A DNA stretch of 64,000 nucleotides from Streptomyces sp. 846.5 (lineage in GTDB: Bacteria > Actinomycetota > Actinomycetes > Streptomycetales > Streptomycetaceae). The notes beneath the pieces are model-generated. The model saw only the letters and a program-made list of their open reading frames with translations, made no database searches and was not told the DNA's origin. This document shows positions 13,338 through 57,278 of the stretch, piece by piece. Positions within the stretch are counted from its first letter, which is position 1; each line of letters opens with the position of its first letter. The stretch spans positions 4,822,001-4,886,000 of the forward strand of contig NZ_SOBN01000001.1 of NCBI RefSeq assembly GCF_004365705.1, written 5' to 3'. Made by a program: the position numbers and the translations under genes.

Positions 13338-14627
13338 CTACACCGCACCCCACTCATGAGCGAGTGCGGCGGCCTCACCACGGGAGGTGACGCCCAGCTT
13401 GTCGAAGATCTTCCCCACGTGGAACTTCACCGTCGACTCGCTGATGTGCAACTCTTGGGCGATGTCCCGGTTGCGCCGCCCGCGGGCCAGCTGTCCCAGC
13501 ACCTCCAACTCCCGTGCACCGAGCCCGGTCAGCGGGCCCTGGCGCGGTGTGTCGGGCGGATTGAGGGGTACCTCGACCGTCACTGTCGTGCCCCACTCCG
13601 GCACGGCATCCAGCTCGAACCTCCCGCCGAGGGGCGTCAGCCGCTCGCCGACCCTGTGAGCGTCGAGAGAATTCCGGGACAGCGTCCCGGGCCCGTCATC
13701 CCGTACGGTGGCCCGCAGGGCGGCCGCGCCCACCTTCCAGCCGACGTGGATCCGGCTCACCCGACGACCGTCCGGCCCGTGCCCCTGGTCCTCCAACGAG
13801 GCCTGAACGACGGCCCGGACCACCGCGGCTGCCGCGTTGACGACATCGCAGGGCAGCAACCGGTCCGCGCCCTCCTCCGCGCCGGGGGTGCCGAGATCCA
13901 GCCGTACGCCACGGGCGCGCAGGATCAGCCGCAGCGAGTCGGCGAGCCGCAGGAACGCGTCCCCGGCCCGCTCCTCCACCAAAGCCTGGTCGAGTTCCGC
14001 CTGCGAGCGGAGTTCGGCCAGGGCGGAGACGGCGAGGTCGACGGCGCGCATCCGGGCGTTGCTGTTGCCCAGGCCACGGTCCCGCAGAACGCTGAGCATG
14101 GCGCTCAGCGCGGCTCCGTATGCGGCACCGAGTTCGGTGAGGGCCATGGCCCGTGCGGCTGCCGCGGCCCTGGACACGGCCAGCGTTCCGGGGACGGCCT
14201 CCGCTCGCAGGCCCTCCCGGTGCGCGGTTTGCGCGTCCCACAGCGACTGGGCGGGCGCCAGGTGCTCCTCCGGTACGGGAGTGTCCTCGGTCCGCAGGAG
14301 AACCAGCAGGGCGGCGGGCTCGGTGATGTCGCTGGCCAGGGCCAGCACCGGCACGTCGGTGCCCGCCATCCGCGCCCGGCCCTGCCAGTTCCTTCCGCCG
14401 GACATCAGGGGCCGTAGCGCGGCCACCTCGGCGGTGGTGACGGCTGAACCAGGCCGCCCTGGGGATTCCCCGTAGACCTGGAACGGCGCGTACGCGCAGT
14501 TGGGCGAGAGGTCGGCCAGCGAGTGGTGGGGAATCACCCCGGCCAGGGCGGCGGAAAGCCGCGTCAGCGCCTCGGCCAGCGGCGCCCGGATCACATCGAC
14601 AGTGGTCATCGGGTCCATGGCGACCAT
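13338..14627 (-). CDS. LuxR-type regulator with histidine-kinase-like ATPase domain (copy 1)
   Basis: About 429 residues. The N-terminal 190 residues are a sensor-like region. Residues 260-355 resemble the GHKL ATPase domain, with an N-box-like NAAAAVVRAVVQAS, VRDDGPG and GTTVTVEVPL. The last 60 residues are a LuxR helix-turn-helix (LGARELEVLGQLARGRRNRD, ISESTVKFHVGKIFDKLGV). No phospho-acceptor His or receiver domain is seen, so this looks like a one-component fusion. Starts at 14627 or 14618 are both possible. It is divergent from an MDR gene, with a spaced inverted repeat between them. The whole pair is duplicated at 47.9-50.3 kb. Confidence 0.82.
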   Translation of the reverse strand: MVAMDPMTTVDVIRAPLAEALTRLSAALAGVIPHHSLADLSPNCAYAPFQVYGESPGRPGSAVTTAEVAALRPLMSGGRNWQGRARMAGTDVPVLALASDITEPAALLVLLRTEDTPVPEEHLAPAQSLWDAQTAHREGLRAEAVPGTLAVSRAAAAARAMALTELGAAYGAALSAMLSVLRDRGLGNSNARMRAVDLAVSALAELRSQAELDQALVEERAGDAFLRLADSLRLILRARGVRLDLGTPGAEEGADRLLPCDVVNAAAAVVRAVVQASLEDQGHGPDGRRVSRIHVGWKVGAAALRATVRDDGPGTLSRNSLDAHRVGERLTPLGGRFELDAVPEWGTTVTVEVPLNPPDTPRQGPLTGLGARELEVLGQLARGRRNRDIAQELHISESTVKFHVGKIFDKLGVTSRGEAAALAHEWGAV

Positions 14628-14652
14628 CGTAATCAGCCCCCTCCTCACTCAG

Positions 14653-14692
14653 GCTGTCCTTTGGTCCAGCCAGAACCGTGCGAAAGGACAGC
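14653..14692. promoter_or_regulatory. Spaced inverted repeat in LuxR/MDR spacer, copy 1
   Basis: GCTGTCCTTT at 14653-14662 and AAAGGACAGC at 14683-14692 are perfect complements separated by 20 bp. The same arms with the same spacing occur in the paralogous spacer at 49208-49247, while the 20-bp interior differs. It is therefore a conserved binding site, most likely for the LuxR-type regulators. Confidence 0.7.
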
Positions 14693-14781
14693 ACGAGCGG
14701 GGCAGCCCCTGCCGAGGATGGAGGCGTTGTCCGCGAACCGCCTCTCAAGGCGGCGTATGCATGTGACGGGAAGTGACAGAG

Positions 14782-15690
14782 ATGAAGGCGATCGTCTACG
14801 AGGAGTTCGGCGGCCCCGAGGTCCTGCGGCTCGCGGAAGTCGAGGAGCCGCACGCCGGCCCCGGACAGGTGCGGCTGAAGGTCATGGCCGTGGGCGTCAA
14901 CCCCATCGACTACGCAACCCGCCGCGGCTGGATGCAGCAGATGTTCCCCGTGGCCTTCCCCGTCACCCCGGGAATGGAGGCGGCCGGCATTGTCGACGAG
15001 GTCGGCGAGGCAGTCACCGGCGTCTCGGTGGGCGACCAGGTACTGAGCTCCAACGTGGTCGGCCCCTACGCCCAGTACGCCCTCGCCACAGATGTCGCGC
15101 ACAAACCGGCCGGCCTCGGCTGGGAGACCGCCGCCGCGCTGCCGGTGGCCGTCGAGACCTCGGACCGCGTGCTGGACCTCCTCAAGGTGAATCGCGGCGA
15201 GACGCTGCTGGTGCACGGAGCCGCCGGCGTCGCTGGCTCCGTCGGCGCCCAGTTCGCCGTGGCCCGCGGCGCCACCGTCATCGGCACGGCATCCGAGGCC
15301 AACCACGACTACCTGCGTTCGCTCGGCGTCACGCCACTCGTGTACGGCGAGGGCCTCGCCGACCGGGTGCGCGCCGCTGCCCCGCAGGGCATCGACGCCG
15401 TGTTCGACGCCGCCGGGAAGGGCGCCCTCAAAGCCTCCATCGAACTGCGCGGCGGCACCACCGACCGCATCGTCACCATTGCCGACCTCGGGGCCTCCGA
15501 CCTGGGCGTGGCCTTCTCCGCCGCCGGCCACCGTCAGTTCGGGTCGGCACTGGCCGAATACGCCCGCCTCGTCGCCGACGGCCGACTGCGTGTCCGTATC
15601 GACCGGAGCTTCCCGCTCGCCGACGCCGCCAAGGCCCAGGAACTGAGCGAAACAGGCCACGCGCGCGGAAAGATCGTCCTCCGTCCGTAG
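14782..15690 (+). CDS. NADP-dependent zinc-free MDR oxidoreductase (LuxR-linked, copy 1)
   Basis: 302 residues, beginning MKAIVYEEFGGPEVLRLAEV. The cofactor loop is HGAAGVAGSVGAQFAVARGA near residue 145, and the end is GKIVLRP. It lacks zinc cysteines and belongs to the quinone oxidoreductase-like MDR group. Alternative starts at 14773 (GTG) exist; the ATG at 14782 aligns with the paralogue at 49341. The two paralogues share long identical stretches such as TSDRVLD, ANHDYLRSLG and RVRAAAPQGIDAVFDA. It is transcribed divergently from the LuxR-type regulator and is probably its target. Confidence 0.87.
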   Translation: MKAIVYEEFGGPEVLRLAEVEEPHAGPGQVRLKVMAVGVNPIDYATRRGWMQQMFPVAFPVTPGMEAAGIVDEVGEAVTGVSVGDQVLSSNVVGPYAQYALATDVAHKPAGLGWETAAALPVAVETSDRVLDLLKVNRGETLLVHGAAGVAGSVGAQFAVARGATVIGTASEANHDYLRSLGVTPLVYGEGLADRVRAAAPQGIDAVFDAAGKGALKASIELRGGTTDRIVTIADLGASDLGVAFSAAGHRQFGSALAEYARLVADGRLRVRIDRSFPLADAAKAQELSETGHARGKIVLRP

Positions 15691-15807
15691 CCGGTCCCTC
15701 GCTCGTCATCAGCCGCGCTCAACCAGTGTGTCCTGTGACCGAGCATCATCTGCAATTCGGCAGTTGTTCCGCAATTTCGCCGTACTCACGTGGACGGAGT
15801 AGTTCTC

Positions 15808-47892: not shown

Positions 47893-49173
47893 CTAGGCCA
47901 CATCCCATTCGTGGGCGAGCGCAGCCGCCTCGCCGCGGGAGCTGACGCCCAGCTTGTCGAGGATCTTCGCCACGTGGAACTTCACCGTCGACTCGCTGAT
48001 GTGGAGCTCCTCGCCGATGTCCCGGTTGCGCCGCCCGCGGGCCAGTTGTCCCAGCACCTCCAGCTCCCGCGCCCCCAGGGCGGTCAGTGGGTCCTGTCGC
48101 GGTGTGTCGGGCGGCCCGAGCGGCACCTCGATGGTCACCGTCGTACCCCACCCGGGCACCGCGTCCACGTCGAGCCGCCCGCCGAACGGTGCCAGCCGCT
48201 CCCCGGTGTGGCGGGTGTCGAGGGCGCCGCGCGGCAGCGTTCCGGGACCGTCATCCCGCACGGTGGCCCTCAGCAGGTCCGGGCCGACCTTCCAGCCGAC
48301 GTGGATCCGGTGCACCTGGCCACCGTCCAGTCCGTGCCCCTGGTCCTCCAGACAGGCGTGCACGGCGGTCCGGACGACAGCGCGTGCCGTGTTGACGACG
48401 TCGGCGGGCAACTGCCGGTCCGCGCCTTCCTCCGCGCCGGGGGTACCGAGGTCCAGCCGTACACCGCGGGGGCGCAGCATCCGGCGCAGCGACTCGGCGA
48501 GTTGTTCGAAGGCGTCCCCGACCCGTACCTCCACCAGCGCCTGGTCGAGTTCTGCCCGCGAGCGCAGTTCGGCCAGGGCGGAGACGGCGAGGTCGACGGT
48601 GCGGGTCCGGGCGTTGGTGTCGTCGAGGCCGCGGTCGCGCAGGACGCCGAGCAGGGCGGTCAACGCGGCTCCGTGCGCGTCGCCGAGTTCGGCCAGGGCG
48701 ATCGCGCGGGCTGCCGCCGCCGCTCGCGAAGCCCCCAGCCTGCCGGGCGTCGGCTCGCTTCGCATGCCCTCCCGGTGCGCGGTCAGCAGGTCCCACAGCG
48801 CCTGAGCGGGTGCCAGGTACTTTTCCGGTACCGGGGTGTCCTCGGTGCGTACCAGGACCAGGAGCGCGCCCTCCTCGGTGATGTCGCTGGAGAGGACCAG
48901 TACGGGAACTTCGGTGCGCGCCAGTCTGGCCCGGCCCTGCCAGCTGCCCCGTGCGGGCACCAGCGGCCGCAGCGCGGCCACCTCGGCGGTAGTGATGACA
49001 GTGCCCGGCCCTCCGGGGGACGCACCGTGAGTCTTGAACGGCGCGTACGAGCAGTTGCCGGACAGGTCCGCCAGCGCTCGGTGGGGAATGCTCTCGGCCA
49101 GGGTGGCGGACAGACGCGACATGGTCTCCACCAGCGGCGCCCGGATCAACTCGACGGCGGCCATCAGTTCCAT
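47893..49173 (-). CDS. LuxR-type regulator with histidine-kinase-like ATPase domain (copy 2)
   Basis: A 426-residue paralogue of the protein at 13338-14627, with the same order of domains. The ATPase-like motifs are VVNTARAVVRTAVHACLEDQ, VRDDGPGTL and GTTVTIEVPL. The LuxR helix-turn-helix at the end (LGARELEVLGQLARGRRNRD, ISESTVKFHVAKILDKLGV) is almost identical to copy 1, while the sensor region differs more (MELMAAVELIRAPLVETMSR against MDPMTTVDVIRAPLAEALTR). The near-identical recognition helix and the shared inverted repeat predict cross-binding. Confidence 0.82.
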   Translation of the reverse strand: MELMAAVELIRAPLVETMSRLSATLAESIPHRALADLSGNCSYAPFKTHGASPGGPGTVITTAEVAALRPLVPARGSWQGRARLARTEVPVLVLSSDITEEGALLVLVRTEDTPVPEKYLAPAQALWDLLTAHREGMRSEPTPGRLGASRAAAAARAIALAELGDAHGAALTALLGVLRDRGLDDTNARTRTVDLAVSALAELRSRAELDQALVEVRVGDAFEQLAESLRRMLRPRGVRLDLGTPGAEEGADRQLPADVVNTARAVVRTAVHACLEDQGHGLDGGQVHRIHVGWKVGPDLLRATVRDDGPGTLPRGALDTRHTGERLAPFGGRLDVDAVPGWGTTVTIEVPLGPPDTPRQDPLTALGARELEVLGQLARGRRNRDIGEELHISESTVKFHVAKILDKLGVSSRGEAAALAHEWDVA

Positions 49174-49207
49174 GGTGACCAGCGTAAGCAACCCGAGCCG
49201 CCCTCGC

Positions 49208-49247
49208 GCTGTCCTTTCGGCCAGGCCGAACCGTCCCAAAGGACAGC
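49208..49247. promoter_or_regulatory. Spaced inverted repeat in LuxR/MDR spacer, copy 2
   Basis: GCTGTCCTTT (49208-49217), 20 bp, AAAGGACAGC (49238-49247). The arms and the spacing are the same as in copy 1 at 14653-14692. Confidence 0.7.
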
Positions 49248-49340
49248 GGGTGCCGAGCACGTCCCATCGGAGGCTTGAGGCGTTGACAGCGACCCGCCTC
49301 GAAGGCGGCATACACGTACGACTTGGGAGTGATGGACACG

Positions 49341-50255
49341 ATGAAGGCGATCTCGTACCAGGAGTTCGGCGGGCCGGAGGTGCTGCGGCTCACGGAGGTC
49401 GAGGAGCCGCACGCCGGTCCCGGGCAGGTGCGGCTGAAGATCATGGCCGCCGCCGTCAACCCGGTCGACTGCAAGGCCCGTAGCGGCTGGATGGAGCGCA
49501 TGGGCTTCGGGGGTGGCGGCTCCTTCCCGGCCACGCCGGGCACGGAAGCGGCCGGCATCGTCGACGAGGTCGGGGAGGGAGTCACCGGTCTCGCGGTGGG
49601 CGACGAGGTGCTCGGCTGGACGGTCACCGGCGCCTACGCCCAGTACGCCCTGGCCACGGATGTCGCGCCCAAACCGGCCGGCCTCGACTGGGACACGGCC
49701 GCCGCGCTGCCGGTGGCCTCCGAGACCTCCGACCGTGTGCTGGACATCCTCAAGGTGACCGACGGCGAGACGCTGCTAATCCACGGAGCCGCGAGCGTGG
49801 TCGGCTCCGTCGGCGTTCAGCTCGCCGTGGCCCGCGGCGCCACCGTCATCGGCACCGCCTCTGCGGCCAACCACGACTACCTGCGCTCCCTGGGAGCCGT
49901 TCCCGTCGCCTACGGCGACGGCCTCGCCGACCGGGTGCGCGCCGCTGCCCCGCAGGGCATCGACGCCGTCTTCGACGCCACCGGCTACGACGTCCTGGAG
50001 GCATCCATCGGCCTGCGCGGCGGCACCACCGACCGCATCGTCACCATCGCCGATGCCCAGGCCTTCGAGCTTGGCGTCACCTTCGCCGGCGACGACCGCC
50101 GGTTCGGGCCGCAGCTCGCCGCCTACGCCCGCCTCGCCGCCGACGGCCTGCTGCGCGTCCGCATCGACCGGGCCCTCCCGCTCGCCGACGCCGCCGAGGC
50201 CCACGAGCTCAGCGAATCCGGCCACCCGCACGGGAAGCTCGTCCTCCGCCCGTAG
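49341..50255 (+). CDS. NADP-dependent zinc-free MDR oxidoreductase (LuxR-linked, copy 2)
   Basis: 304 residues, MKAISYQEFGGPEVLRLTEV at the start, the cofactor loop HGAASVVGSVGVQLAVARGA, the end GKLVLRP. It is a close paralogue of the enzyme at 14782, with a two-residue insertion near GWMERMGFGGGGSFPATPG. ATG 49332 (MDTMKA) and TTG 49323 are other possible starts. It is divergent from LuxR copy 2. Together with copy 1 it shows duplication of the whole regulator-enzyme module. Confidence 0.87.
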   Translation: MKAISYQEFGGPEVLRLTEVEEPHAGPGQVRLKIMAAAVNPVDCKARSGWMERMGFGGGGSFPATPGTEAAGIVDEVGEGVTGLAVGDEVLGWTVTGAYAQYALATDVAPKPAGLDWDTAAALPVASETSDRVLDILKVTDGETLLIHGAASVVGSVGVQLAVARGATVIGTASAANHDYLRSLGAVPVAYGDGLADRVRAAAPQGIDAVFDATGYDVLEASIGLRGGTTDRIVTIADAQAFELGVTFAGDDRRFGPQLAAYARLAADGLLRVRIDRALPLADAAEAHELSESGHPHGKLVLRP

Positions 50256-50336
50256 CGGGACGCTCGCCCATCCTCGGCCACGCATGACCGGAGTCGGGCT
50301 TCGGGGGCTTCATACCGAGCCCTCGGAGACCGTCCA

Positions 50337-50675: not shown

Positions 50676-53279
50676 ATGGCTGTGCAGGGAGACCAGGAGA
50701 CGCCCTGGCCGGAGCGGATCTGCCTGGGCGACCGAATTGTGCTTGGGGATCTCCTGTGGACCGTTCGGGCTCTCGACGGCCCCTGGTTGTCGCTGGAGGA
50801 TCAGCACGGCGGGACACAGGAGTTGACCGTGCTCCAGGCGCTGGTCGCAGGAGCCTGGTTCGCTGCCGCGGCCGGAACGGTGCCGGCTTCGCCGCAGGAC
50901 CGGGTGCCCGTGTCGGGCAGCGCGGCGTGGGCGAAAGCCTGCTTCTGGGAACAGCACCTTATCGAGGTGATCACCGGACAGCGACCGATGGCCCACGCGG
51001 CCGGGGCGTCGAACCCCGACTATGACCTCCGTGCAACCACGCTGGCGCAGCGTGAGGCCGCGAAGGCGGCGGAACTGTCACGGATGCCCTGGCCGGGGCG
51101 GGTGTCCGCGCGGACGGTGCGCCGTAAGCGGTTGAGCTACCAGGAGCAGGGCCTTGGCGGACTGGTGGATGGACGGGCCGGGCGTACGGAGGCCAACGGG
51201 GCCCGCGTCAATCCCGTGATCCTGCAACTGCTCTATAACCAGGCATTGGAGCGGCGGAGGGGCCAGACGTCCGTGACGCTCTTGCGCAGGATTCTGGTCG
51301 ATGAGGTGGAGCGTCGCCATCCTGAACTGGTCGACGCTGTGCCGTCGGTTTCGACGATCCGCCGGATCGTCTCGAAGGCCATGGCTGCGCCGAAGCCGCA
51401 CCGTCCCCAGGCATGGGGCCTGGGCGCCGGCAGGGAGCGGTTGCTTCCGGACGGGCGGGCGCAGGTCACCTCGATTCTGTTCGACCTGCGCGCGCCCGGC
51501 GGAGGAGTCGTCCCGCAGCAGTTGACGGTGGCGATGGATGCGGCCACTTCACGCCTGCTCGCTGCCGTGGTCCACCTGCCCTCCTCTCTGCCCGATGGGC
51601 CGGCCCTGCTGGTGCGGATGTGTACGCCCAGGGTGCTGCTGCCCGGCGCCGAGGCCGCGAGTGATCCGGCGGCACTGGAGCAGCCGTTCGTCCGGCCCCG
51701 GCAGTTGCTCCTCGAGCCTGGGCCGCTCGCCCGTTCGGCCGCCCTGCGCTCGGCTTGCCGTGCGCTCGGGCTGGGGCTGCAGGTGCGAGCGCTCGGGCCG
51801 TTGGACAAGGGCGAGGTGGAGCGGCACGGGAAGAGGCTGCGGCAGGCACTGGAGGCCGCCTTGAGCGAGGAGGACTTCTGGCGGAGGCTGCCGCAGCAGG
51901 GGGATTCCGAGGCGGTATGGGTGGCGGTGCAGCGCTTCGTGGACGAGTGGATCCCCGGCGTGTGGCAGCCGGCGCCGGCCAGGGGCGCCGTAGTCCCCTC
52001 CGATCAGCGAGGGAGAAGGCAGCGGCGGGGCGGAATGCGGTATGCCGATGTGCCCTATCCGCCGCAGGCGACCTTGCCGCTGCTGCCTTCGATGTGGCGC
52101 CAGGTCACCCGCCGCGGTGTCCAGGTGGGAGGACAGCGCTATGACGGCGCCGTCCTTGACTCGCTGCGAGGACTGCCTCGGCAGGACGGTGCGGTGCAGG
52201 CAGGCCGGGTCCGTGTCCACGTCGACTCCACCGACCCGGAGCGGGTGTGGCTCCGGTTGCCGCACCAGGGCTGGGCAGCGGTTCCCCGTGTCGGCGAGGC
52301 ACCGGGTCCCCGTTCGGGCCCACGGCCCATGGAGCCCCGCACGCACATCGCCAACGTGGTAGCGGGCAGCACGTCGAGTGGCACGGTCTTCCAAGCTGCA
52401 TCCTGGGCCGACCTGGTCCGGTCCGGGCAGCGGACTGATCGGGAGGGCGACTTTTGGGGGCCTCCGGGTAGTGACGGCTACCGTGCACGACTGGACTACC
52501 ACGCGCAACTGGCAGTCCTCGACAGCCCGTTGGTCGCGGCGGTCCGCGAACGGGCGCAGGCGTTGCTGGTGATGAACGCGCAGCCACGGGATCCTGGGGG
52601 GCCTCGGCACATGTTGCTGGTGACCGGAGTCCCGGGGATCGGGAAGACGACAGCGTTGCGCGAGGTCGCCCGCAGCGTCGAGCAACGGGAGCGGACGCAG
52701 GACCCTGAACGGCCCGACCTGACTGCGAGCCTCTACACGCCGGTCCGTCCCGGGAGCAGCGCCCGCCAGTACTTGGCCGACACGCTTCAATTCCTGGGCC
52801 TGTCCAGGTCTCGCCACTCGACCTGGCAGCTGTGCGACCTGCTGCGCGATGAACTGCTGCGACGCGGAACCAAGGTGGTCATCGTTGACGACGCCCACGC
52901 TCTGGGCAGGCGTTCCGGCGGTGGTGACTTGGAGGTACTCCGGCATCTGGCCGACCAGGTGCCCGCCCTGTTCATGGTCGCCGCTGTGGAGCTCGACCTC
53001 TCCGGCGCGCAGCAAGTCGCGGCCCGGTTCGAGCATGTACGGGGCGGCCCTGTGCCCCCCGGTCCCGAATGGGAGCGCCTGGTACGCGATTTGGAGGACC
53101 AGCTGCGACTGCGTCACTTCCGATCGGGCGGCCTCGTCCAACAGGCGGACTACCTTCACGCCCGGACCCGGGGCGTGGTCGGCGGCCTGGTCCGACTGGT
53201 GGCACGCGCGGCGGTCGAGGCCATCCAGGACGGCAGCGAGGACATCCTCGGCCGTCTGGCTGAACGGCGACTGGTCTGA
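50676..53279 (+). CDS. TnsB/TniA-type integrase fused to TnsC/TniB-type AAA ATPase, altered triad
   Basis: About 867 residues from ATG 50676 (GAGGGGA upstream; earlier in-frame starts exist). Residues 115-235 are helix-turn-helix-rich (RVSARTVRRKRLSYQEQGLG GLVDGRAGR). Residues 260-400 form an RNase H-type core: Asp270 in VTSILFDLRAP, then LTVAMDAATSRLLAAVV, then LLLEPGPLARSAALRSACRA with Glu347 where the second Asp (normally DxG) should be, and Glu382 in GEVERHGKRL, 35 residues later. A beta-barrel-like region follows. Residues 645-867 are AAA+: Walker A TGVPGIGKTTAL (near 651), Walker B KVVIVDDAH (near 735). Usually these are two proteins. No TniQ is nearby. Confidence 0.75.
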   Translation: MAVQGDQETPWPERICLGDRIVLGDLLWTVRALDGPWLSLEDQHGGTQELTVLQALVAGAWFAAAAGTVPASPQDRVPVSGSAAWAKACFWEQHLIEVITGQRPMAHAAGASNPDYDLRATTLAQREAAKAAELSRMPWPGRVSARTVRRKRLSYQEQGLGGLVDGRAGRTEANGARVNPVILQLLYNQALERRRGQTSVTLLRRILVDEVERRHPELVDAVPSVSTIRRIVSKAMAAPKPHRPQAWGLGAGRERLLPDGRAQVTSILFDLRAPGGGVVPQQLTVAMDAATSRLLAAVVHLPSSLPDGPALLVRMCTPRVLLPGAEAASDPAALEQPFVRPRQLLLEPGPLARSAALRSACRALGLGLQVRALGPLDKGEVERHGKRLRQALEAALSEEDFWRRLPQQGDSEAVWVAVQRFVDEWIPGVWQPAPARGAVVPSDQRGRRQRRGGMRYADVPYPPQATLPLLPSMWRQVTRRGVQVGGQRYDGAVLDSLRGLPRQDGAVQAGRVRVHVDSTDPERVWLRLPHQGWAAVPRVGEAPGPRSGPRPMEPRTHIANVVAGSTSSGTVFQAASWADLVRSGQRTDREGDFWGPPGSDGYRARLDYHAQLAVLDSPLVAAVRERAQALLVMNAQPRDPGGPRHMLLVTGVPGIGKTTALREVARSVEQRERTQDPERPDLTASLYTPVRPGSSARQYLADTLQFLGLSRSRHSTWQLCDLLRDELLRRGTKVVIVDDAHALGRRSGGGDLEVLRHLADQVPALFMVAAVELDLSGAQQVAARFEHVRGGPVPPGPEWERLVRDLEDQLRLRHFRSGGLVQQADYLHARTRGVVGGLVRLVARAAVEAIQDGSEDILGRLAERRLV

Positions 53280-53714
53280 CCGCCGGCGGCAGGACGCCCA
53301 CGGGTCGGCGCGGATCGGTCGATTCATCCAACTGGCCTGACTTCAAGTGGTGTTGGCGCGTGGGGGAGGACCCGGGGAAGCCCGGACCGGGTCGTGGCGG
53401 AACTCGTTCCGGCAGCCACCAGAGGAAGGATGCCGACGCGGATCCGGATCACTGTAGATGGCCCTTTGCGGCATGCCAGTTGTCAGCTTCAGTGGCACTT
53501 CCCGCCATTGAGTTCGGTGGGAGCGTCGGTAGCATCACCGCGAACCGCGATTGCTCGACCACGGCCGGGCGTCACGGGGGAATGCGGCTCATTCGCGGCA
53601 GCTTAGGGCCCATAACTGAGCCCTGTGGAACCAGATTTGACCGGCAAAAGTCCGAATTCGGGCAATAGGTCCAAAGGCTCTCGGGGGTCGCGGCACCGGT
53701 CCTACTGTGGCGCC

Positions 53715-54239
53715 ATGACCATGCATGCCGAAACGCCGACGGCCCCGCAGGTGGAGGCCGATCTCTTGGGGTTGATCATGGAGTGCGAGCGCCTGATCGA
53801 CTTCCATGAGGGCCGCATGATGCGCATGAAGGAACGGCGCGACCAGGCCGTGGCTGCGCTGGAGACTTTGCGGGGTGCCGCCGGCCTCGTGGCCTCGATC
53901 CGCCGTGAGCTTCGAGGCGATGTGGAGCCGCCGCTACGTGTGGTCCCCGACCCCGTACCCGAAGCGCAGCCGCAGGAGACAAAGATGATCACATTCAAGG
54001 GCGGCAGTATCTCGGTGGCGATCCTCACGCTTCTGGAGTCCGACCCGAATCGGACCGCGCCCTGGAGCGTGGACGAGATCACCCGTGCGCTCTCGAAGGC
54101 CGGACCGACAAGTCGGAGCCGGGTCTCGGCGAATCTGGATCACGTGTACCGGCGTGGCGCGCTCGAGAAGGTCGCGGTCCCCACGGATCCCGAGCACGTC
54201 TACTACCGCGTCTGTGTCCGCTGGGGCGTCACCGACTAG
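53715..54239 (+). CDS. Unknown protein: coiled coil + winged-helix-like domain
   Basis: 174 residues. Residues 10-65 are helical and charged (LIMECERLIDFHEGRMMRMK ERRDQAVAALETL), probably a coiled coil. A Pro-rich linker leads to a C-terminal winged-helix-like part (SISVAILTLLESDPNRTAPW, VDEITRALSK, RSRVSANLDHVYRRGALEKV), which could bind DNA. ATG 53715 was chosen because the frame upstream lacks coding character. It follows the integrase-ATPase by 435 bp, a stretch (53280-53714) without a gene. A role as accessory DNA-binding factor is only inferred from context. Confidence 0.6.
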   Translation: MTMHAETPTAPQVEADLLGLIMECERLIDFHEGRMMRMKERRDQAVAALETLRGAAGLVASIRRELRGDVEPPLRVVPDPVPEAQPQETKMITFKGGSISVAILTLLESDPNRTAPWSVDEITRALSKAGPTSRSRVSANLDHVYRRGALEKVAVPTDPEHVYYRVCVRWGVTD

Positions 54240-54829
54240 CCGGACCGTACTGGCCTACCCATCTCGGAGCACTCGCCAGCGATCAAGGAAGGAGGGAGCG
54301 CCGCCCGCCCCGGTAGAGTTTTGGCAAACGCCCGGGGCGGGGCGGCAACCACCCGCAGGCAGCCAAGCGCCGGATTGCGGGTCTCGTTTGGACGGTACCG
54401 GCCCTTCGGGTCGGCTGTCCGGCGTTCGGCCGATTCGTCCTGCGCGCGTGTCAGAAAGTCGAACGCCCATGCGAATCAAGTTCACTCGTGCGACGATCCC
54501 GGGCCCGCGGCGGACCCGCCGCCTCCTGGCTTCCCGCCGCTCCTGCCGCGTTGGCCTCCTCGCCGCGCTGGTCGCCGACCGGTCCGACGGTGCGGCTGCC
54601 GTCCTTCGGCTGGCCGCGCTGGGGCCGGTCGGGGCGGCACAGCCAAAGGATCACCCCCAGGAAGCCTTCCAGTGCGCTGACTGCGCACACGTCCGGCCAG
54701 GAGCTGCCGGTGGGGACGCTGGCGGTCAAGAGGGCGAATCCACATGCGAATCGAGTCCCTGCCAGTGAGCGCGCCGGAGCCGCTGCCGTGCACAACGACC
54801 ATCGCGGCCCGCTCCCGCGAGTTCGGCCC

Positions 54830-55462
54830 ATGAGCACCCGCGGGGAAGCCGCCGGAGGCCGGGACGCGGTCGCCGCGAGCCTGCTCCGGACACTGGATGC
54901 CACCAGGAAGTACCTGGACGAGGCCAAGGGGGAGGCGGAGCAGGCGCGGAAGGACCTGTCCCGCGCCGAGGACCGGACTGCGAGTCTGGTCGGCCTGCAG
55001 ACCCGGGTCGGTGCCGAACTCGACCGGGTCACCAAGGCGTGGGAGACCTGCTGCGGCCTGCACGACGAACTCGTCGAACTCTGCGGAGCCCAGGACGCGC
55101 CGGATGACGGACCCCGGCCTCCGGGCGCCGAGACGCAGGAACCTGTGGAGATCACCGGCGCTCGCTCGATCGCTCTGATGCGGATGCTGAAGCCTGCGCC
55201 GATGGATGCCTGGGCGTTGCGGCCTGCGGCGGCGTCGGTGGCCAGGCGGTGCGCCGTCATCGCCCGCCGGGCCGGCCTGTCCACCCGCCACAACCCCGTG
55301 CGCGTGCGCGACGTCACCGCCTGGTACGGCCGCACCGTCCTGGCGCGCACCGGCAGCCTCCCCGAAGTCGCCCGCGCACTGGGGCTGACCTCGCTGGACG
55401 CGGCCGCGGCCGCCATCGGCTACCCCTGGCAGGACCAGCCAGCCGCCGGGGCCAAGCCATGA
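54830..55462 (+). CDS. Unknown protein: coiled coil + C-terminal helical domain
   Basis: 210 residues. Residues 15-85 form a long charged helix (RTLDATRKYLDEAKGEAEQA RKDLSRAEDRTASL). The C-terminal 90 residues (ARRAGLSTRHNPVRVRDVTA, TGSLPEVARALGLTSLDAAA, AAIGYPWQ) have the rhythm of a helix-turn-helix or a degenerate tyrosine-recombinase end, but the catalytic HxxR is absent. Its stop overlaps the next start (ATGA), so the two are translationally coupled. The preceding 54240-54829 holds no gene I can support. Confidence 0.6.
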   Translation: MSTRGEAAGGRDAVAASLLRTLDATRKYLDEAKGEAEQARKDLSRAEDRTASLVGLQTRVGAELDRVTKAWETCCGLHDELVELCGAQDAPDDGPRPPGAETQEPVEITGARSIALMRMLKPAPMDAWALRPAAASVARRCAVIARRAGLSTRHNPVRVRDVTAWYGRTVLARTGSLPEVARALGLTSLDAAAAAIGYPWQDQPAAGAKP

Positions 55463-56952
55463 CCGCCCCCAAGCGCCGCCCCAGCTCACGCCAGACCCTC
55501 GCCAAGACACCCGAAGAACGCGGCTGGGAACTGGGCCCCGTACCCGACGACATCTTCGGCTCCGCCGAGGACCTGCCGGAGCCCAAAAGTCGGCGGGCCC
55601 CCCACCTGAGCATCCCCGCACGGCTGCGCGCCGTCGCCGGCAACCCGGACATCTACCGGGCTGCGGCCGCCGTGTTCATCACACCCGAAGGCCCCACCCC
55701 CGGCCGCCCTCGGAAGTTCCCCGCCTACATCTACCTCATCTACGACTGCGCCATCACCCTCTTCGGCACCGCCACCGCAGCTGAGTCCAACCTGGCCGCC
55801 CCCGAATTCTGGGCCATCGTCCAAGACGGCGTCAGGGCCGTCCTCGGAGACCAGGAGGCGAACGCACTGCTCCGCCGGGGGCCCACCCGCGGGAACTGGA
55901 GCTACTTCTTCGCCAGACACCTCAAGCCCAACCTGGCCGTACTGCGCGAACAGAGCCGCGAACTGTGGCTGCAGCAGGCGCTGGGGAGCGGCCTCCTCGA
56001 AATGGACCAGGGAACCTGGATCCGCCCCGCGTGCGGGCAGACCATCCACGGCGACGCCACCGTCGCCCACCCCGCGTCGAGCCAGACCGAGCCGACCAGC
56101 CCCGACCGCGCCGGTCGCATGAAGAACCGCCGAGTTGATCCGGACGCCACCTACACCACCGAAGGCGGAGGAACGGTCGTCTACGGGAACAAATATCTCA
56201 GCCTTGCCGTCCGTGCCGCCAACCAACCGCACAGCCGCGTCGTCCTCGACCTGCAAGCGCTTCGGTTCAAAAGGGAATCCGAGGACCCTGACAAAGAACT
56301 CGAAGGAGATGCCGTCGTCGCCAGCATGCTCCGCATCAGAAAAAGCATTGCCGGGCGATTGGCCTTCACCTACGACAAGGCCCTCCACGGCGTCCACCGC
56401 GCTCCGCTGATCGCCGCCGGAATCACCGTCTACACGCCCCAGGTCGAAAACCTCCAACCGCAGCCGCTGCAGACAGTCACCCACGAGCACTGCTGCCACG
56501 AGCTCTACGCAGCCGCCGGGCGCGTGTGCGAGCGCCTGGTGCCGGCCGACAGCAGCCGGATCATCTTCAACCCGCTCCCTGCCCTGGGGTTCCACCCACG
56601 TCCCGGCAGCAAGCGATTCCGCTTCTACCACCAGATCGGAATCCCCTGCCGCCACGGCCCGCACACCGTCATGATCCGTGTCGACGAAACATCACAGGAC
56701 CGGCAGATCATGAGCAACGGCCGCAAACGCTTCAACCGCACTCACCACTTGCGCATGGTCTACTCCGGTACCCCAGCCGGGGCGAGGCTCGCCGGATTCC
56801 GCCAGGACAGCGAATCCAAGCACTCCACCTGGGACCTCTCCTACCGCCACAAGCACGTCCCCGCCTACGGCTCCGACGGCGGCCTCGCCCTCTACTTCGG
56901 CTACGCCTGGCTGGCCAACTCCATCGCCCGCGCCTACGCCGGCAACGTCTGA
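55459..56952 (+). CDS. Unknown protein with DDE-transposase-like RNase H pattern
   Basis: 497 residues. The order of motifs resembles IS4/IS5/IS1182-type DDE transposases: Asp199 in TIHGDATVAHPASS, then DPDATYTTEGGGTVVYGNKY LSLAV as in the VYGYK strand, Asp306 in LAFTYDKALHGVHRAPL followed by GITVYTPQV, and Glu452 in RQDSESKHSTWDLSYRHKHV near the end. The N-terminal 160 residues are not shared with those families as far as I can tell. A His/Cys cluster (HEHCCHELY, CRHGPH) could bind metal. It is coupled to the coiled-coil gene before it and lies 223 bp from the tRNA gene. It may be a transposase relative or a domesticated one. Confidence 0.55.
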   Translation: MTAPKRRPSSRQTLAKTPEERGWELGPVPDDIFGSAEDLPEPKSRRAPHLSIPARLRAVAGNPDIYRAAAAVFITPEGPTPGRPRKFPAYIYLIYDCAITLFGTATAAESNLAAPEFWAIVQDGVRAVLGDQEANALLRRGPTRGNWSYFFARHLKPNLAVLREQSRELWLQQALGSGLLEMDQGTWIRPACGQTIHGDATVAHPASSQTEPTSPDRAGRMKNRRVDPDATYTTEGGGTVVYGNKYLSLAVRAANQPHSRVVLDLQALRFKRESEDPDKELEGDAVVASMLRIRKSIAGRLAFTYDKALHGVHRAPLIAAGITVYTPQVENLQPQPLQTVTHEHCCHELYAAAGRVCERLVPADSSRIIFNPLPALGFHPRPGSKRFRFYHQIGIPCRHGPHTVMIRVDETSQDRQIMSNGRKRFNRTHHLRMVYSGTPAGARLAGFRQDSESKHSTWDLSYRHKHVPAYGSDGGLALYFGYAWLANSIARAYAGNV

Positions 56953-57149
56953 ACCGGCTCAGCCACCCCAGGCCCACTCCCGACCGTGCCCGGGCCGGCG
57001 CTGTGCCTCTGCGGGAGCCGCCGCAGGGGGCTCAAAGCCGTCGATCACCCCCAAGGCGACCCGCTACACTATGCCCAAGCAGGGGTCACGCGCCTCCGCC
57101 CAGTGGATCTGTCAGTGATCAAGAGCTCAGGGCTCACCGCCTCAGAGTT

Positions 57150-57172
57150 TTTGACACATTTGTTGACACATC
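57150..57172. repeat. Direct repeat TTGACACAT beside the tRNA gene
   Basis: Two copies of TTGACACAT, 12 bp apart in period, end three bases before the tRNA-Arg gene. Read on the other strand they are TGTGTCAA repeats, which could be an element end with transposase sites. They could equally be tRNA promoter -35 elements. Confidence 0.45.
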
Positions 57173-57175
57173 CCC

Positions 57176-57248
57176 GCCTTAGTAGCTCAGGGGATAGAGC
57201 ACGGCTCTCCTAAAGCCGGTGTCGCAGGTTCGAATCCTGCCTAGGGCA
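57176..57248 (+). tRNA. tRNA-Arg (CCU)
   Basis: A full cloverleaf of 73 nt. The acceptor stem GCCTTAG pairs with CTAGGGC (one T-G wobble). The D arm is GCTC/GAGC. The anticodon stem CGGCT/AGCCG encloses the loop CTCCTAA with anticodon CCT. The T arm is GCAGG/CCTGC with TTCGAAT. The discriminator is A and CCA is not encoded. It decodes AGG, a rare Arg codon in this DNA. It directly follows the recombination-like locus, which is notable because tRNA genes are common insertion targets. Confidence 0.97.
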
Positions 57249-57278
57249 CACCCCGCCGAGACATCGGCACGCACGGCA

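Follow-up and report, generated by a model that had tools for sequence, protein, structure and literature searches.

We analysed a 64,000-nucleotide stretch of DNA (hereafter the window; contig 1:4822001-4886000) from the 9.03 Mb genome of Streptomyces sp. 846.5, in which a gene for a fused TnsB-TnsC-like protein (TnsBC) heads a set of genes leading up to a tRNA-Arg(CCT) gene. The best explanation of this locus, as read from sequence, is that it is an eroded member of a mobile-element family of Streptomycetaceae, Streptacidiphilus included, with a related module on mycobacterial plasmids. We propose that these elements are site-specific transposons in which a core of two proteins, termed F2 and F0, would define the element end and the target, and in which the fused TnsBC would act as a dedicated partner; we put the probability of this reading at about 0.5. 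An initial annotation of the window had hesitated between a compact mobile element and a host system built from transposon parts. The mobile element was the better of these two readings, and no support for a host system was found for the family, although it is possible for the eroded window copy.

Gene order and the tRNA-Arg(CCT) site

The conserved unit has the order TnsBC (where present)-F7-F4-F1-F2-F0-right end-tRNA-Arg(CCT), with F4 on the reverse strand. The full order was found in S. muensis, S. odonnellii, S. niphimycinicus, S. caeruleatus and genome G046, and it was recognisable in S. sp. LBL and S. sp. TRM68416, with no F7 match seen in the latter. The genes noted together in the window thus co-occur elsewhere beside the same tRNA gene, and because gene order and tRNA both recur we regard the arrangement as more than chance. 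F0 has tRNA-Arg(CCT) downstream of it, in the same orientation, in 33 of 39 GTDB loci, in 32 of them within ~400 bases (in L121 the tRNA is 5 kb from F0), and six loci (L105, L114, L122, L124, L125 and L127) were without this tRNA. F0 was matched in 19 of 297 family genomes; in this family sample, which overlaps the GTDB set, 15 of the 19 F0 loci had tRNA-Arg(CCT). The suggestion that the set might always lie at a tRNA gene therefore holds for most loci, with tRNA-Leu(CAG) as the neighbour in two further genomes (G099 and G288, described below).

In the window the tRNA-Arg(CCT) gene, taken as landmark and putative target (57176..57249, + strand, detected with ARAGORN), is abutted at its first base by the right-end motif GAGTTTTTGACACATTTGTTGACACATCCCC (57145..57175, + strand). 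The set had been described as ending three bases from the tRNA gene; the last gene, F0, stops at 56952, 224 bases short of it, and it is this non-coding terminal motif that reaches the tRNA. S. muensis and S. caeruleatus have 8.18 kb in common (89%); the shared stretch is bordered on one side by the tRNA, and the left flanks are unlike. The similarity border of close relatives falls at an AT-rich block, which may be a promoter and not the end of the element.

Of 39 sites, occupied or remnant, 28 have a promoter-like sequence, GCTACACT, 113-123 bases ahead of the tRNA; in the window it lies at 57063..57070 (+ strand), 113 bases ahead. A scan for the sigma-70 consensus upstream of the tRNA found nothing, and at 25 tRNA loci with no F0 match the promoter-like matches were scattered, from 20 to 168 bases from the tRNA. 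The idea that the element resupplies a promoter is therefore weak, and a longer leader in occupied tRNA sites is only partly supported. A native tRNA promoter left at the left border was not found in the occupied loci searched.

It should also be noted that in S. lushanensis a second F0-F2-F4 unit (L095:11505-16311) lies across the tRNA-Arg gene from the first, in inverted orientation. By eye, the 3' side of tRNA-Arg seems to be taken by prophage or integrase genes in several genomes (L031 of G046, L209 on a viral contig, L032, L035 and L039), so both sides of tRNA-Arg(CCT) may be insertion hot spots. At L148 (G008) and L146 (G047), which have no F0 match, the sequence ahead of tRNA-Arg looks, by eye, like the element's right end; these are possible scars of lost elements.

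The F0 and F2 proteins

The window F0 (P0002; 55459..56952, + strand) has 497 amino acids. The Asp/Asp/Glu order already noted in this protein was confirmed, as D199, D306 and E452 are invariant in 20 aligned F0 sequences, the window included. An AlphaFold model of F0 (predicted local distance difference test score, pLDDT, 79; predicted template modelling score, pTM, 0.81) aligned to Tn5 transposase with a Z score of 13.8 over 292 residues (VIA-align; root-mean-square deviation 4.5; next families 9.2), at an identity of just 9-10%. F0 is thus predicted to have the Tn5-transposase fold with an intact DDE triad. With the same model, Foldseek returned nothing at E ≤ 0.001; mariner and TnsB structures filled the first five places and RuvC came 15th, with unrelated folds in between. 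The window F0 had no match in Pfam, NCBIfam or PADLOC, and the 20 aligned sequences had no relevant Pfam match.

The model of F2 (pLDDT 81) had structural matches to XerA (E 5e-10) and to the lambda and Tn1549 integrases, and Phage_int_SAM_1 was above the Pfam cut-off in one member. Its domain matches are to a single core-binding domain and a single domain of the catalytic type. In an alignment read by eye, with positions judged from known tyrosine-recombinase motifs, none of 17 F2 sequences had the box-I Arg or the HxxR motif and no Tyr was conserved. F2 is apparently an inactive protein of the tyrosine-recombinase fold. Of the other members of the unit, F4 is an HTH_3 regulator of the XRE type (Pfam) on the opposite strand, and F1 and F7 had no profile match above a cut-off.

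The fused TnsB-TnsC-like protein

The TnsBC gene of the window (50676..53279, + strand) encodes 867 amino acids from the ATG at 50676, near which the proteins of relatives also start in the alignment; the frame is open from 50499 (926 amino acids). An N-terminal helix-turn-helix (HTH) and DDE integrase half is followed by Mu-transpos_C (~residues 469-528) and by an AAA+ half (~625-860) in which the Walker A motif is kept. The annotated presence of DDE and AAA halves in one chain was borne out by the single frame and by Pfam, where AAA_22 was above the cut-off (E 9e-15), TniB was at its margin (E 1e-4, 22.2-22.4 bits vs a cut-off of 22.4) and Mu-transpos_C was just under it (E 8e-4). In a set of fused TnsBC proteins (n = 7) AAA_22 and Mu-transpos_C were matched in all seven and TniB in four, with a best E of 1.9e-13.

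The two halves do exist as ordinary split genes elsewhere, including in the same genome (contig 2:413043-415858, L004), where TnsB (644 amino acids) and TnsC (381 amino acids) occupy separate frames. Yet intact single-frame fusions were found in nine other genomes, namely G046 (64% identical to the window), G099, G288, S. muensis, S. odonnellii, S. niphimycinicus, S. caeruleatus, S. sp. LBL and S. sp. TRM68416; the frame was single in 10 of 11 loci and broken in S. sp. CT34 (L105). In a quick tree built from the TnsB half, in which some branches are long, the 11 fused copies all fell on one side of a branch with a support of 100 in the Shimodaira-Hasegawa-like approximate likelihood ratio test (SH-aLRT), vs 28 split family enzymes. 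Because the fusion is conserved and the fused copies group together, a sequencing error, which had been considered a possible cause of the fusion, was ruled out.

Among the fused copies (n = 11) the first Asp and the third Glu of the catalytic triad were present in all, and the second position was Asp in eight and Glu in three (the window, L117 and L105). The split TnsB enzymes, in contrast, were D-D-E in 29 of 29 aligned, one of them from a viral contig. Enzymes of this kind are usually crippled when Glu takes the second position. Relative to the split enzymes, the fused copies were eroded in the residues surrounding the triad. An apparent loss of the third catalytic residue in G046 was rejected, as the full alignment shows that it is kept. 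Within the part of the family sample that was inspected (loci L050-L091 out of all the matches in 106 genomes), four fused copies were found and all of them head a module of this family; the remaining seven fused or broken copies were found via F0 and so necessarily have it.

Split TnsB-like genes were often located 4-40 kb from contig ends (G278, G128, G181, G121, G289, G195 and G155), and the first five of these genomes had a mirrored pair, as if inside the terminal inverted repeats of linear chromosomes. On viral contigs we found two copies of F0 and a single TnsB/TnsC relative of the ordinary split kind.

Erosion of the window copy

The alignments indicate that the window copy is eroded: the second catalytic Asp of TnsBC is Glu, F1 is gone and F2 is truncated. 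At the DNA level, the 2.1 kb that in G046 hold the N-terminus of F4, F1 and the greater part of F2 correspond to 0.53 kb in the window (54728..55259), a scar of deletion or replacement, and the match ends inside the G046 F4. What is left of F4 (54451..54728, - strand) is the C-terminal half, the HTH part being gone. F7 (53625..54239, + strand) is a coiled-coil or helical protein with a likely start at ATG 53715 and a G046 homologue 73% identical to it. The small protein ahead of F0 (54830..55462, + strand, start approximate) retains only the end of F2, to which its last ~70-80 residues match, and its coiled-coil N-terminal part had no homologue among the loci compared. The two small proteins of the initial annotation are therefore present on the same strand as TnsBC; that the second is the stump of the tyrosine-recombinase-like F2 had been missed. 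The frames of TnsBC, F7 and F0 are still open. Elsewhere in the window, 47898-50283 and 13343-15718 form a duplication at ~80% identity, with genes of regulator and quinone oxidoreductase type (named by eye).

A second tRNA neighbour, a nested unit and plasmid-borne copies

A second branch of the family, in G099 and G288, has TnsBC, F7, F4, an F2-like and an F0-like gene beside tRNA-Leu(CAG), on its 3' side. When G288 was compared to its close relatives G301 and G313, similarity started at tRNA-Leu and the next 1.5 kb differed; no F0-like match was found in the 1.5 kb beyond tRNA-Leu in these relatives, i.e. the element is lacking there. A candidate right-end motif for this branch was withdrawn, as the sequence in L132 is the native hairpin of the tRNA and is also found in the empty relative L189.

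In G099 a unit of ~5.26 kb interrupts the F0 gene of the first element, with F0 pieces on either side. This nested unit contains F0b, F2b, F4b, F7b and two small frames, with no TnsBC match, and its junctions form a perfect 11-bp inverted repeat (TGTTCACGAGT/ACTCGTGAACA) of the type TGT..ACA. Such ends suit TnsB-type enzymes.

Three mycobacterial plasmid backgrounds carry an HTH-F2-F0 module ending in GGTTTTnGTCAGGTATnCnAAGACGTCCC, with F2 as two small genes in one of them. This end resembles the tRNA-proximal end of S. lushanensis, GGTTTTAGACACGCTTTTCGACAGATCCC (compared by eye, with no statistic). The mycobacterial copies have no fused TnsBC beside the module, and on plasmid L213 a separate pair of an AAA ATPase and a DDE-type integrase lies 1.3 kb past the module end. 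Copies without TnsBC also look mobile. Three hypothetical genes on the reverse strand adjoin the mycobacterial module (L212:3107-5291, L213:4142-6300 and L214:3551-5715).

Selection and neighbouring defence genes

We estimated ratios of non-synonymous to synonymous substitution rates (dN/dS) pairwise by the Nei-Gojobori method. In the S. caeruleatus group these were 0.31-0.40 for TnsBC, 0.25-0.37 for F7, 0.21-0.38 for F4, 0.28-0.47 for F1, 0.15-0.26 for F2 and 0.11-0.16 for F0. Between the window and G046 the ratio was 0.40 for TnsBC (0.46 for the TnsB half and 0.29 for the TnsC half) and 0.23 for F7. Directly left of modules without TnsBC we found SspABCD (L102), DndB with an SspA/DndA-like desulfurase (L107) and DpdB/QueC (L109). 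TnsBC and defence genes can coexist, as in G099, where defence-like genes are located to the left beyond TnsBC.

Proposed mechanism and alternative explanations

We assign end recognition, cutting and site choice to F0 and F2 because they are the most constant and most constrained proteins of the unit and because a similar right end occurs without fused TnsBC. Recognition of the tRNA-adjacent site would fall to F2, perhaps together with F0, by analogy with TnsF at comM, and F0 would cut and join the element ends, with F4 and F1 as likely regulators. TnsBC may be a dedicated partner and not random cargo, since, in the loci inspected, it occurred nowhere but at the front of such modules. In the manner of TnsC, its AAA+ half would control which target is chosen, and in those copies which keep D-D-E its DDE half could aid strand transfer. 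Some copies would have defence genes in its place. In a weaker step, the element may place its own promoter (GCTACACT) before the tRNA, such that insertion does not silence it.

Several points weigh against this proposal. No transposition was observed, and many F0 copies are broken or remnants. TnsBC was matched in just 7 of 39 GTDB F0 loci (some with short flanks), and its role may therefore be dispensable; conversely, TnsBC could itself carry out transposition, since the split enzymes are uniformly D-D-E and most fused copies keep this triad. For the tRNA-Arg elements neither the left end nor a target-site duplication was resolved: an inverted copy of the right end sought near TnsBC gave weak hits only, and the suggested comparison with empty sites found none with a matching left flank for the window in 14 genomes of the genus. 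With no left end found, the defence genes may be no more than neighbours of the element. Next to the two ends of the nested unit the five adjoining bases are unlike (CCGAC and CCCCC), giving no clean target duplication. Finally, some F2 proteins have a Tyr near the nucleophile position (e.g. L104, L111 and the mycobacterial copies), so the case for inactivity rests on the missing Arg and HxxR.

The same parts could be arranged in a Tn7-like manner, with the fused TnsBC as transposase and regulator, F2 and F0 only as target selectors, and copies without TnsBC moving in trans or being relics; F0 might then be a helper that was captured to stand in for TnsA, perhaps as a nuclease-like protein. 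The purifying selection on TnsBC, its Walker A motif, the complete triad in 8 of 11 copies, its restriction to module heads among the loci inspected and the TGT...ACA ends of the nested unit would all suit this scheme. The scheme fits less well with the Glu in the other three copies (the window included) and the eroded surroundings of the triad, with the stronger constraint on F0 than on TnsBC, and with the similar right end of mycobacterial copies that have no adjoining fused TnsBC, although L213 does have its AAA/integrase pair 1.3 kb beyond. F2 would fit the precedent of TnsF as outlined in PMC10293859. We consider this arrangement unlikely, if still deserving of serious attention. A domesticated or dead locus, whose parts no longer move in the source genome and serve the host or nothing, would account for the loss of F1 and of the F4 and F2 N-termini from the window, for the Glu at the second position and for the higher window-G046 ratio in the TnsB half (0.46) than in the TnsC half (0.29); with TnsBC, F7 and F0 still open, window-G046 ratios below 1 and intact family members elsewhere, we find it decidedly less plausible.

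Patchiness (19 of 297 genomes) could also reflect frequent loss of an old, vertically inherited and non-mobile operon, and such an operon would lie on the same side of the same tRNA, as seen in most loci. However, the F0 proteins of three Streptacidiphilus species did not form one clade (3 changes, in a quick tree with long branches for these rows), close relatives sharing 8.1 kb have unlike left flanks, and there are copies on mycobacterial plasmids, a further copy nested in another element, and a second tRNA target, so that we hold this to be highly improbable. The least credible of the alternatives is that TnsBC is cargo of an F2/F0 element, e.g. a weapon against rival elements. It does sit on the side of the module where three other copies have Ssp, Dnd or Dpd genes, but in the loci inspected the module comes after it, and this holds in two branches that are deeply split and differ in target; its sole PADLOC match had an E of 0.011, and in G099 the defence-like genes are found in addition to it.

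In the most far-reaching form of the reading, three proteins acting jointly would set the element down precisely where a tRNA gene has its 5' end: a DDE enzyme of the Tn5 fold, a dead tyrosine recombinase that reads the target, and TnsB-TnsC in one chain. The element would supply the tRNA with a new promoter, exchange of F2/F0 would change the site and defence cargo would be possible. That this whole constitutes a novel architecture is a tentative claim, to which we give rather less than even odds. It would join three recombinase lineages in one element and illustrate a new design for transposons that insert at a single defined site. The two branches with different tRNA neighbours make target-selector swapping testable, and the elements are possible site-specific vehicles for defence systems in Streptomyces and a possible tool for targeted insertion in actinomycetes, which may spare the adjoining tRNA.

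Comparison with known systems

Site-specific transposons with target selectors are known; the present combination of parts was not found in the literature searched and is apparently undescribed. The titles and abstract beginnings searched gave no TnsB-TnsC fusion and no such tRNA-Arg element, with one review containing the words "fusion of TnsB" (PMC10761935) left unassessed.

As in Tn7-like and Tn5053-like elements, a DDE recombinase with a Mu-type C-terminal domain is combined with an AAA+ partner, the seat is beside a conserved gene and defence genes are near some copies. Here, however, TnsB and TnsC are in one chain and not separate, there is an extra Tn5-fold DDE protein, and the second catalytic Asp is not fully conserved. 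Of the TG..CA inverted repeats and 5-bp target duplication of Tn7-like transposons, repeats (11 bp, TGT..ACA) were seen solely in the nested unit that lacks TnsBC, with no clean duplication. The initial annotation had seen no TniQ/TnsD or TnsA, and this stood for the proteins scanned: TniQ/TnsD had no match in the four window proteins, the 20 F0 proteins or the relatives' F1, F2, F4, F7, F2-like and F0-like proteins (genes outside the unit being covered in part), and TnsA had none in the proteins scanned.

With Tn5, an IS4-type element, F0 shares an alignment over most of its length (Z 13.8) and an invariant D/D/E; it differs in its lack of a relevant Pfam match, its 9-10% identity, the F2 alongside and the TnsBC of some copies. 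Islands driven by an integrase at the 3' end of a tRNA gene, such as integrative and conjugative elements and prophages, are unlike the present family in that none of 17 F2 sequences has the box-I Arg or HxxR and that the tRNA-Arg copies are on the 5' side, the two tRNA-Leu copies being on the 3' side.

According to PMC10293859, CRISPR-associated transposons (CAST) of types I-D and I-B2 home beside tRNA genes, and in CAST I-D the TnsB/TnsC-type machinery lies beside tRNA-Leu, 30-33 nt past the end of the gene, with homing via TnsD. The tRNA-Leu neighbour is shared with G288 and G099; the TnsD-guided homing is not, and the tRNA-Arg branch is on the 5' side. The same paper describes TnsF of Tn6022-like transposons as a protein with N-terminal zinc fingers, tandem core-binding (CB) domains, a TniQ partner and comM as target (Faure et al. 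2023, PMC10293859). Compared by this description, F2 differs in its domain matches (a single core-binding domain plus one of catalytic type), in its tRNA neighbours and in that no TniQ partner was found. Both are tyrosine-recombinase folds, inactive in TnsF and apparently so in F2, in the company of TnsB- and TnsC-like proteins, and as TnsF selects the target (PMC10293859), F2 would be an apparent further case of a dead tyrosine recombinase in the position of target selector, with two tRNA neighbours in two branches.

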